A DNA stretch of 64,000 nucleotides from Siphonodentalium dalli (Eukaryota; Mollusca; Scaphopoda; Gadilida; Siphonodentaliidae). The position numbers were made by a program, and so were the translations under genes. Positions 37,201-43,200 of this stretch are shown piece after piece. The notes beneath the pieces are model-generated. The model saw nothing but the letters and a program-made list of their open reading frames with translations. It was not told the origin of the DNA and searched no databases. The stretch is from assembly GCA_032622095.1 (NCBI GenBank), contig CP136067.1, positions 52,677,899 to 52,741,898 of the forward strand, given 5' to 3'. Positions within the stretch are counted from its first letter, which is position 1; the number at the start of each line of letters is the position of its first letter.

Positions 37201-40200
37201 TTACAATATAAATAATATACCTGTTTGCCATAGGTGCTGTCCACTGACGCTGTATACCATGGTGCCATATATGACTGATCCACACAAAGTGCATAGACAC
37301 CCTCAATTATGGTAATATAATTAAGAGTATGTATCCACGCTGGTTTAGTCGCTTGCACATGTTATTTCGTGTTAGGTTCGTAGGAATACAGTGTCATTTA
37401 GGCAATCTCACACGACTTCCCCGTCAAGAACATTTTGGGCTGAAATTTGTTAGATAGTTAGACATTTTGGGCTGAAGTTTGTTTGATAGTTAGATAGTTT
37501 GTTAGATAGTGCCGCCCGCCTCCCCAAAGCCCACCCACCCTACAAGTGATTTTTCCTATAGTGTTTTTGAAACGTGTCTCTTTGTGGTGTCTCTCAGGTG
37601 ATATAGTCTCTCGCATTCGAGAAGATAATGAAATTCATCTCCAATCTTTCTGGAGTTACAGAGTGGACAAAGACAATAGAGAGGTTTCGCATGTGACGTG
37701 GATAGAGTATAACGGATACAAAGTCAGGAATGGTTGTCCATGCAGTGAGTTTCCGCTTGACACGATCTATACCATGCAAATATATTTACAGCGCGAACGA
37801 TAATCTTCTCATCAATCGGCTAATCACTGGGACAATTGGGAATAATTGTCCAAAGCGTGATAAACGATGGCTGCATGATACAAATTTGACACTCTGTCCG
37901 TCGCACGGTTAGGAAATTACGGCTGTGGTTAGCTAGAAGGTGCGCATAATTTGATTACGTAGTACCCTAACCGTCGCCCAAAACGTATCCGTTGCTTTCC
38001 CCTAAAACGCGTTCCATCCTTCATCCCGAATATTCCCAAGAACAACAACACCCATATAGGATAGTGCGTTGCATCGTCACGCGGACCATATTTATTCTCA
38101 CCAACTACACATAATCATTCCAATATACATGCACAAAAACATTCCATCACAACCATATAAACAAACAAGGACATCCATCACAATTACATCGGCCATTTGC
38201 ATCTGGGCAGATGGCCCAACATCACTGAATGTTCTAATCACACCCGAGATAGAAAATGATATCATTGTGTACACGCTCACCTGCATCTGCGCAGATGGAG
38301 GAACATCACTGAATGTTCTAAACCTCGCACTTTGAATGACAGTGCGGCCTGATAACCTATCACGCACACTACCCGGGCCGTGCATCACGTTGCAGTGCCC
38401 CACCTCGAACTGACATGAAGTCGCATCGCATTCGCAATGCAGTTACAACGCGTCACTATAATGACAGTGTATAATTAGTCACCAATATATACGCAATTTT
38501 CCTATTCCATCGGAAATATGTACGGATATTTATGGCATCAAGTCCACTTTTACTGTAGTACTTCACAAAACAGTCCACCAAAAACCGCTTTTCATCTGTT
38601 CTAACATTTAATCATTCACAAATCTCAATGCTCAAATATCCAAATATTCCACATGCCAGTCCACTAGAAATACATAAAATGGAATAAATAGCCATCTATT
38701 AACCATTGAGAGATGACTGCATCGAATTATGCATGGAACCAAAATATCCGTTTGCGTCTGCGCAAACTCCAGAACATCACTGAACGTTCGGAAACCGTAC
38801 ACTGCAGGAGCAGTATATGGCGTCGGTCTGCATTACCTATAATTCTAATTGAATTAATATGCATATAATTCGCCAAAATTGGAAACAATACAACACACAT
38901 CATATATATATACAAATATATACGTATACATACATATATATACACATATACACACATATGTATCGATAAGCATCGAACAAGACTTTGTTTATAATACACC
39001 AATCGCCCGTCGGCCTGCACACGGTCAGAAAACCAAACATCAGTGGTTCCAACACGACACTGTACTGGCAGTGAGAATATAGTTTTGTCCAGTTGACACG
39101 ATTGTGTTTATGGACCCAAACAACGTTTACTGTAGTATTCTACAAAATAGTCCACCAAAAATCGCATTGCATCGGTTCGAACTTTTAATTATTCACAATT
39201 CTCAATGCTCAAATATCCAAATATTCCATATTTCAGTCCACTGGAAATACATAGAATAAAATAAATAGCCATATAGTATGCATTGAGAGATGACTGCATC
39301 TAATTATGGAGCCAAGCATCCGTTTGCATCGGCGCAAACTCCAGAACATCACTGAACGTTCGGACAAGCGAACACTACATGGGCAGTATAATGTCAGTCT
39401 GCATTACTTATCATTATATTTGAATTACCGGTAATATGCATATAAATTCTCCATTAATTGAAACAAATATAATATACAGCCAATACAAATATCTATCGCT
39501 CGCGATATGTATGAATAAGCATCCATACAATCCTAGAAACACTGATATCCCATCTCTCTGTGCATACGATCAAAAAACCCAACTTGATTTGTTCGAACAC
39601 GACACTGTACTGACAGTGAGCATAATATTATAGACCCGTTTACACCATTGTGAATAACCACGGTTACTCGGTTCCATCTGGAACAATTTACGAATCTCAA
39701 ATTTCCATATATCCACAAGTAAATCCAATGGTAATTCGTATTCCAATTACACACCATGCAGATAACAAGATACATCGTAAATACAGTGGATACTCTGCAC
39801 TTCAACATACACCTGATGCTATTATGATAATATATGTTGCATACAGGATCTACTTTAGAAAGACTATTCGAGTCTTAACACACTACAATATATTACTACA
39901 TGTAATACTGATTTATAAAACATAATATATCCAATATATAGATACAATCACATTATACAATCATACTGTACTGACAGTGATCATAATATATACCCGTTTA
40001 CACCATTGTGAATAACCACGGTTACTCGGTTTCATCTGGAAAAATTTACGAATCTCAAATTTCCATATATGCACAAGTAATTCCAATGGTAATTCGTATT
40101 CCAATTACACACCATGCAGATAACAAGATACACTGTAGATGCAGTGGATACTCTTCACTTCAACATACAACTGATGTTATATGAAAATATATGTTGCATA

Positions 40201-43200
40201 CGGCCAGTCGGATCTACTTTAGAAAGACTATTCGAGTCTTAACACACTACAATATATTACTCTACAATCTACATGTAATACTGAGTTATGAAACATAATA
40301 TTTCCAATATATATATACAATCATATTATACAATCATGGATTTCACAATAAAAAACAACATGAACCATAATGTTACTACGGTACGTGGCCGGCCAGGAAA
40401 AACCATAGATAAAAACCCGTAGGATAAAACACCTATGGAAACCTGTGACACCAAACCAATGCCAAGTAACAACTTATACCGTCCGATCTCTACCAGATCT
40501 GTCGATCGGTACCGTACCTCAGTGTCGGCTTATCACTGGCAACATTATGTCATGCACACAAACCACTCCCTACATTCTCTCTAAATCGGTGTCAACAATT
40601 GAGCTAATACATAACATGTATTTCAACATGTCCCATACAAAGACATGTATCGATTTAATTCATGAAAGAGCTATCAGATTCATTGCAATGCGGATATATA
40701 CACGTGTATATATATATATACGTATTAACGCCTCGTAGACCGTAAACATTTAGGCGGTCCACACCCTAAGACGGAATCAACGCAGATGACAATACACCTC
40801 TCGCCAACGAGAAGCGCCGCATTCGGCGATTCGTCTTTCACCGCTAGGGGAAAGTACTTTAACTCTAATTCCCTCCGGTCAAACGATTTAAAGAATATTT
40901 CCCCTAAAACGCGTTCCATCCTTCATCCCGAATATTCCCAAGAACAACAACACCCATATAGGATAGTGCGTTGCATCGTCACGCGGACCACAGATTGACA
41001 AAGAAAGAATGATGAATAATTCGATATCCCCAATTTCTAATAAAACTAAAGCGGCACACTGAGTACCTTATCACATTCTGATCTTCGACAATGGTGCCAT
41101 TGAATCTGTTATTGAAAATTTCAAGATTCACACATCTGTTTCGAATATACTGTTCAGTCGATTATTTACATATAATAAATATATCGTTTGATCATAATTA
41201 TGCATGTCATAAATTTATAATTTTTAACAAGAACCATCTGGAGTTCAGTTCTAAGATATACAGAACACACGAGTTCCGTTGATATATAGAATGATTTCAT
41301 AGTCCCATCAGTCTGTTACATGTAAACATATGAATTCAGCGCCATGCATTTCCAAATGAACACTTGTTCGGAGACGAATCCTCACCGATTGATGACAGCC
41401 AATCTGTGATGTCTACACCTCCGGTAAAACCAAGCTGTTCGCCATACGCCTGGAATGGAACATCGACAAAACCAGTACGCACAGTGATTCTCAACCAAAT
41501 TTTCAAAATAATTTGTGTAATTTTGAATAACCATTCCCTAATGATTTTTTTTTTTTTTTTTTGTGAATCCGCAATTTTGAAAAGTTGACAACTCTATATA
41601 TAATATATGGTATGTATATTTTAATGTTCACAATACAACCTATATTGTATGCATCCCTGCATCAGTGAGAATGCGGAGCAAACCAACTACAATATCGTTA
41701 TGCAGCCCAATAAGACGTCATGTCTAACCCGGATACAACATTGTATCACAATTTTCACGTGAGTTACACAATTTCACACATTCGGAACCATACTAAGAAT
41801 TCGAATTATTTCGTGAACAAAACGATCTTTCCAACGCAGCAGCTTACAATAATATAACTGCGTGCTGTTACACATGTATAGTAAGTGTAAAACCACAATT
41901 TAGCTCCCAATTTCGGAATTTATATACATTTGTTTCATTGACCGAGCCATGGGCCTATGTGTATATGTATTCTAATATATACATCAGTTCACAAACCCTT
42001 TGGGGCACATTGTCAATTAACAAAGAAGAATTATACTTATCTTCAATCTTATAACTCATCGCCGATTCGCCACCATAATTTCTCAATCGGACGATTCCCT
42101 TAGAAGACACAAATGTATGCCGCTATCTTGATGTACTGTATAACTTCCGAATTTGATGCACAAGAGCGCAAGGCGAACTGGTAATGTCTCACTCAATCAA
42201 GCCGGTAAACAACGATCACGTAGTCGTCACACTAATCAGCTTATCTCACAGTGACCAACGTCCGTGTCATATCACCAGCGTAACATGCCGTTCGATTTTG
42301 TTATTGAGTTAATGCATGAATCTGCTGTAAAGCGATAATGTCTTGTTGGCTTCAATATATTGTAACTCCGGCAAAGGTGCACATTCAATATGGCTGCTCA
42401 ACAAAATTTAGGCGGTCCACGCCCTAAGACGGAATCAACGCAGATGACAATACACCTCTCGCCAACGAGAAGCGCCGCATTCGGCGATTCGTCTTTCACC
42501 GCTAGGGGAAAGTACTTTAACTCTAATTCCCTCCGGTCAAACGATTTAAAGAATATTTATCCGTGACAAGCGAAAGCTCTCTAAAGACAAGTTTCGCAAA
42601 TTCACGGTTTTCAGATACGATTACAACTAGGACACCACGTCACCAAGTTATTTGGCACCTTCTAATCGTAACCATGAAGCCCTATAACCACAATAACGGA
42701 TATAGGTTTTCAATTCCTTCGGTTTATTCCAAAAAACTTCTTTTAAATATTCAGGCACTCAGTCAACGAGGTTCGTTGTGCCATACAGCCGTCAGCTATG
42801 AAACATGCCGACAACTATCATCAATTGGCCGAATCTATATATATAAAAGTGTAGGATATGTCTGTCCGTCTGTCTGTCTGGATTTTTCTTCCAGACTGCT
42901 GGTACGATTTTGGTATGGTGACTCGGGGTATCCTGGCGAAGGTTATAATTGCGTTAGTTTTTCAAAAATGTTATTTAAAAAAATGTATTAAACAAACAAA
43001 AAAACGCTCACTGTGGGCCTATTTCAGCACCAGGTGTACTCTCTTCATAAGTGCGTTTTCACTTTGGCCCGCGCCATCCAGCAGAATAACGGGGATAAGT
43101 CCACTATGGGTTTATCACTGGGGTTCATCCACAAATCGAGATTTTACCGCTTTTCCGATAAATGCTACGCCGCATTTTCGAAAATGCTTTACATAGTGGT

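Follow-up and report, generated by a model that had tools for sequence, protein, structure and literature searches.

The 64,000-nucleotide stretch of the Siphonodentalium dalli genome analyzed here (the window, whose positions are used throughout; contig CP136067.1, 52,677,899 to 52,741,898) carries an insertion built on split direct repeats, with no detected gene. An earlier note, made from the letters alone, had described a 93-bp A1, a fused B1A2 block and a 153-bp B2 in this order, and the layout was confirmed: A1 (37996-38088) and A2 (40898-40990) are identical at 93/93 positions, and B1 (40748-40900) and B2 (42406-42558) at 152/153, a single difference. Within these limits, the A and B repeats overlap only in the TTT at 40898-40900; the window copy has TTT at each of its three junctions. 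Judged from 26 left ends, 27 right ends and a clear empty site for each of two other copies, the whole element runs from TTCCCC to GAATAT, giving a unit of 4560 bp on the forward strand (37997..42556), with the T at 37996 and the TT at 42557-42558 assigned to the host. All parts are read on the forward strand: the left terminal repeat A1 (37997..38088, 92 bp), a non-coding inner part X (38089..40747, 2659 bp), the inner copy of the right end repeat B1 (40748..40898), the inner copy of the left end repeat A2 (40899..40990), a second non-coding part Y (40991..42405, 1415 bp) that is unrelated to X, and the right terminal repeat B2 (42406..42556, 151 bp). B1 and A2 are joined end to end as GAATAT/TTCCCC, which is the fusion of the two ends of the family.

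The inside of the element had been described as tandem repeats, which holds for X and fails for Y. X contains two tandem pairs on the forward strand, one with a unit of about 577 nt (38546-39106 and 39123-39652, 75% alike) and one with a unit of about 360-370 nt (39604-39964 and 39965-40337, 89% alike), together with an AT/AC-rich microsatellite on the same strand (38895-38959), and no internal repeat of at least 40 nt was found in Y. Comparison of X with Y, and of either with the rest of the window, gave no significant match. Missing from the window Y, after 41221, are about 96 nt that other copies (five displayed) have wholly or partly. The insertion stands out by strand composition, with a GC skew of -0.235 for X and -0.144 for Y, the 3-kb flanks having 0.007 and -0.005. 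X also holds four copies of a 47-nt hairpin-bearing motif (38191-39364) whose stems vary among copies; the folds gave z scores of -2.4 (38190-38330, two copies), -2.5 (38740-38800) and -0.5 (39312-39372).

The split-repeat layout recurs at many loci of the host genome as one unit. A search of 2.227 Gb in 9 contigs gave at least 74 matching stretches, with 37 of 321 candidates scored, so that all family counts are lower bounds. We took 35 stretches, including about 300 bp of flanking DNA, and together with the window they represent 35 sites (designated by L numbers), L025 and L048 being one copy. Composites with X followed by Y in the order A-X-B-A-Y-B occupy 20/35 sites, some of them truncated, interrupted or ending at the stretch edge; L037 is counted here although it is without B1 and part of A2. 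The independent composites number 19, since L042 and L043 have a common left flank and are read as one duplicated insertion. Ten sites are of the A-X-B type, seven with both ends (L020, L021, L022, L023, L036, L041 and L044) and three with one end missing (L029, L045 and L046), and three are of the A-Y-B type (L032, L033 and L034); the other two (L026 and L047) are fragments. Trees were built for X (26 loci) and Y (18 loci) and compared by eye. L018 and L031 grouped in both (support 0.94 for X, 0.97 for Y), as did the window copy and L030 (0.85 and 0.97), and L014, L015, L016, L019, L025/48 and L035 formed one group in each tree; the position of L017 differed between the trees with weak support. 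That the two trees hold the same groups indicates that the composite moves as one unit. The A-X-B and A-Y-B copies were scattered amid the composites (L022 near L027 in the X tree, L033 near L027 in the Y tree), and this dispersal suggests that the solo forms were probably derived from composites, several times. Isolated AB repeats have likewise been described beside full Ngaro copies, in a report that treats them as likely recombination products (PMC8547959).

The repeats of a single copy resemble each other more closely than those of different copies. In a permutation test that omitted L025_48, whose B1 is damaged, and L042, which duplicates the L043 insertion, the within-copy distance of A was 21 versus 36 under random pairing (12 copies; 0/100000 permutations), and that of B was 27 versus 48 (11 copies; 1/100000 permutations). 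Some variants private to one copy are carried by both of its repeats: three in A, found in L015, L028 and L030 (the last a 10-nt deletion in both A1 and A2), and five alignment columns in B, two in L015 and the rest a 2-nt insertion and one change in L035. Summed over 13 copies, A1/A2 and B1/B2 showed 45 differences, whereas identity at insertion predicts 70.9 and a divergence as large as that of X between copies predicts 151.5. The value of 70.9 is an upper estimate, being twice the terminal X branch, which may predate insertion; L024 and L028 contribute A only and L027 and L031 B only to the sum, and L043, with 3 differences where 13.6 and 13.1 would be expected, is left out of it. Repeat 1 and repeat 2 are not set apart at any column (at most 3/14 copies for A and 2/12 for B). 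The counts thus fit A1 = A2 and B1 = B2, or nearly so, at insertion. For split-direct-repeat elements a reverse-transcription model has been published, implying near-identical repeats at insertion, as one account sets out (PMC6681497). The within-copy near-identity and the private changes present in both repeats suggest that A and B are renewed at each move, as in the split-direct-repeat (PAT/Ngaro/VIPER) retroelements. Gene conversion between nearby repeats could mimic such renewal, but for that it would need to have acted on A as well as on B, and in most copies analyzed.

We analyzed the ends across the family, locating left ends by a pattern that contains TT with one mismatch allowed and counting the duplicated L042 and L043 both. 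The left end is N/TTCCCC, the base preceding TT being A in 8, T in 7, G in 7 and C in 4 of the 26 left ends, and the right end is GAATA followed by T in 26/27, T in 20/27 and T in 18/27; the sole A among the 27 comes from L034, where a small insertion near the end misplaced the cut. As the family ends are TTCCCC... and ...GAATAT, the outer TTT belongs to the window copy and a minority of the others, and TTT at the three junctions, which the earlier note took as a trait of the element, stands for the window copy and fails as a family rule. By descriptive counts only, A tends to be favoured in the left flank (-9, -7, -2) and T in the right.

The occupied site of L032 reads GAC/TTCCCC...GAATAT/TGTG and lies inside a repeat that is present empty in the window at 34054-34401 and 61943-62313, with GAC-TGTG at 62240 and GAC-AGTG at 34330. 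This dispersed repeat has three copies in the window (34027-34407, 47847-48062 and 61914-62386), two of which supply the L032 empty site. The empty counterpart of L034 lies within L044 and reads GCG-TTGTCACG. At these two clear empty sites nothing was duplicated, nothing was lost and no TTT was required, and the single TTT that had been expected of empty sites was seen in neither sequence. A third candidate, for L033, was ambiguous (73% identity in a T run). Target duplications of 4-6 bp, named beforehand as a result that would refute the proposal, were absent from the two clear empty sites, and a scan of 20 copies, which displayed matches common to more than one copy, found no offset shared by at least 2 of the 20. 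The lack of a target site duplication is a defining trait of PAT and Ngaro elements, and the two clear sites agree with it. Inverted arms around TTT were also considered as recombinase sites; 8/13 pairs were found, a score equalled or exceeded in most of 300 shuffles, and the idea was rejected.

We propose, with a probability of roughly 60%, that the window holds one copy of a gene-less, non-autonomous mobile element that works like the split-direct-repeat (PAT/Ngaro/VIPER) retroelements. The observations that carry this proposal are the A1 ... B1A2 ... B2 order, which PAT, Ngaro and VIPER elements have in common with the window copy and the others (20/35 sites in all), the co-grouping of X and Y, the near-identity of the repeats within copies and two clear empty sites that show no duplication. 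Enzymes of a putative helper would copy the presumed RNA intermediate of the element; the inner B1A2 block would serve as the template restoring both outer ends, A1 and B2; and the joined product would be inserted without target duplication, presumably by a recombinase. The A-X-B and A-Y-B forms would be by-products of recombination between the repeats.

Several observations weigh against this proposal. The reverse transcriptase, RNase H and tyrosine recombinase of the PAT/Ngaro/VIPER group were not found within the element: six-frame Pfam scans, with X placed at stops, gave 0 families. This absence of protein domains agrees with the earlier note, which had seen no such frame and whose view of a gene-less passenger is probably right. 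With 0 Pfam families, it could be at most a non-autonomous member of that group, and membership of the tyrosine-recombinase group is not established, because no domain was detected. Y before X was seen at 0/35 sites, although both orders would be expected from a circle bearing two equal BA junctions. A 3-bp TTT overlap between circle and target is not kept at the outer ends or in the empty sites. DIRS1-like elements are described as lacking a target duplication and integrating at a 3-bp sequence common to circle and target, although the source states the overlap for these elements and, in the part concerned, not as a criterion for PAT or Ngaro (PMC3266345). Private variants confined to one repeat (13 in A, 21 in B) outnumber those shared by both, which fits change after insertion and weakens the renewal signal, and 3/13 copies exceed the expectation for identity at insertion (L019, 6 vs 2.0; L024, 4 vs 2.7; L027, 2 vs 0.3). 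Finally, the ends of the element fit features of Helitron2/Helentron elements: an ATAT end, an N^T target and a 9-nt asymmetric terminal inverted repeat, with one arm close to the 5’ end and the other 47 nt from the right end, within the 20-60 bp from the 3’ end that characterizes these elements.

The last of these points underlies the strongest rival, in which two Helitron2/Helentron-type (HINE) non-autonomous rolling-circle elements were fused end to end and their repeats later homogenized by gene conversion, with mobilization starting at A1 or A2 as 5’ end and stopping at B1 or B2 as 3’ end; we consider it unlikely. The 5’ arm of the inverted repeat is TTTCCCCTA, the first 9 nt of A (37996..38004, forward strand; repeated at 40898-40906), and the 3’ arm is the same sequence reversed (42503..42511, reverse strand; 47 nt from 42558; repeated at 40845-40853). 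This placement was matched in 22/20000 shuffles of B and by 61/200000 random end pairs (draws near the element being skipped and not replaced), and TTTCCCCTA occurs four times in the 64 kb versus 0.52 expected, all at element ends, and two of them are the repeat counterparts of the other two. However, any inverted 9-mer between A and B, wherever placed, was obtained in 96/3000 shuffles, and a nested inverted repeat at the BA junction was not special: 11/2000 shuffles reached its score, but so did 36/263 window tiles. The 9 nt fall within the 8-15 bp given for Helitron2 inverted repeats (PMC3627910) and short of the 11-15 nt of the HINEs described in two reports (PMC4067079, PMC7492417). The T-rich target without duplication is likewise as in Helitron2/Helentron elements; Helentron-type elements are described with terminal repeats at a distance of 38-60 bp from the 3’ end, a T-rich target, no duplication and, in some copies, tandem repeats (PMC4067079), Fusarium Helitron2/Helentron elements with the 3’ terminus ATATTTT (PMC5148889) and oyster HINEs with satellite-like arrays (PMC7492417).

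Rolling-circle movement would account for the forms A1-B1, A1-B2 and A2-B2 and for the absence of Y before X, but on its own it leaves unexplained the within-copy near-identity of A and B and the shared private changes. A 5’ hairpin was also lacking, since A has no stem of at least 5 with a loop of up to 12 and its first 45 nt are unfolded; a check of the 3’ end for a palindrome or hairpin gave AAAGTACTTT plus a weak CTTTAA/TTAAAG stem. In sum, the HINE/DINE-1 and Helitron2 elements described in four reports (PMC4067079, PMC3627910, PMC7492417, PMC5148889) have the same position of the asymmetric inverted repeat, T-rich target without duplication, inner tandem repeats and ...ATAT end, and the window element differs from them in its split repeats alike within copies, its lack of a 5’ hairpin and an inverted repeat of only 9 nt. 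A family bearing marks of both groups shows that split-direct-repeat and rolling-circle elements cannot be separated by their layout alone.

Two further explanations are highly improbable. Separate A-X-B and A-Y-B elements, both of which exist as solo forms, might have been inserted side by side by chance at the window locus, but X precedes Y at 20/35 sites, the X and Y trees have groups in common and A1 and A2 of one copy carry the same changes; likewise, two independent head-to-tail elements were rejected as a local accident, because X and Y group alike at many sites. A deleted or rearranged long terminal repeat (LTR) retrotransposon would account for the renewed direct repeats, which are also typical of LTR elements, but the complete BA block is internal only, the outer ends are half repeats, the 4-6 bp duplications are missing as described above and A and B formed one ordinary LTR, the other refuting result named beforehand, at 0/35 sites, so that this explanation is refuted for the copies seen by the site layouts and the empty sites.

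Rfam at gathering scores gave 0 matches in the window, a piece of A and a piece of B each gave 0 matches against viral contigs, and the A and B pieces gave 0 against plasmids, where only near matches were sought. A 17-mer of A had 5 matches in prokaryote contigs, which were judged to be chance (flanks alike at 33-37/93 positions). An astacin domain lies elsewhere in the window, outside the element, and together with the size of the genome it points to an animal host. The window holds other repeats as well. A 1292-bp tandem duplication (23393-24684 and 24688-25979; 1 mismatch, TTA between the copies) carries a 22/28-nt satellite-like array and could be an assembly artefact; as a second head-to-tail case (23393-25979) it was rejected, having no inverted 8-mer between its ends, and it is read as a plain duplication. 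Long near-perfect palindromes, perhaps hairpin-type repeats, lie at 49772-50001, 20497-20678 and 52796-52976; the right flank of L016 contains parts of the palindrome at 49772-50002, and L019 (G000:C7:26203400-26208650) is flanked by the arms of a palindromic repeat with 63/64 aligned nt identical. Tandem units of about 734 bp at 29008-31860, with relatives at 11428-12220 and 32051-32523, contain several overlapping open frames of 110-174 amino acids, and arrays of a 16-nt unit like TTCGGAGTATCGGACC, plus an inverted partner, occupy 34969-35621.

Among known systems, Ngaro and PAT elements have the same A1...B1A2...B2 layout with near-identical repeats of similar length; DIRS-53_XT, a Ngaro element, is listed with an A of 236 bp, a B of 152 bp and 100% identical repeats (PMC9210276). 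The window element differs from them in having no detected gag, reverse transcriptase, RNase H or recombinase, a non-coding Y of 1.4 kb and satellite-like tandem pairs in X. A literature search for gene-less split-direct-repeat relatives turned up only SIRE, described as the non-autonomous A2-to-B2 part of VIPER in Trypanosoma cruzi (PMC6681497). SIRE is likewise a gene-less split-direct-repeat derivative, to which the A-Y-B copies correspond in form, but it comprises the A2-B2 part only, whereas the window family is gene-less as the full A1-X-B1A2-Y-B2 unit and is dispersed. It is possible, though we hold it with some doubt, that the family represents a gene-less, satellite-carrying animal split-direct-repeat element that moves as this full unit, renews its ends, sheds A-X-B and A-Y-B copies and has Helitron-like ends and target, whether as the full-length passenger of a PAT/Ngaro-like helper or as a rolling-circle element regenerating its ends from the inner junction. 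If the repeats are renewed in gene-less copies, the family would offer an experiment of nature on the cis requirements of the process, which may amount to no more than A and B in their given order. What is annotated in a genome as an A...B pair may, moreover, be the by-product of a larger unit.

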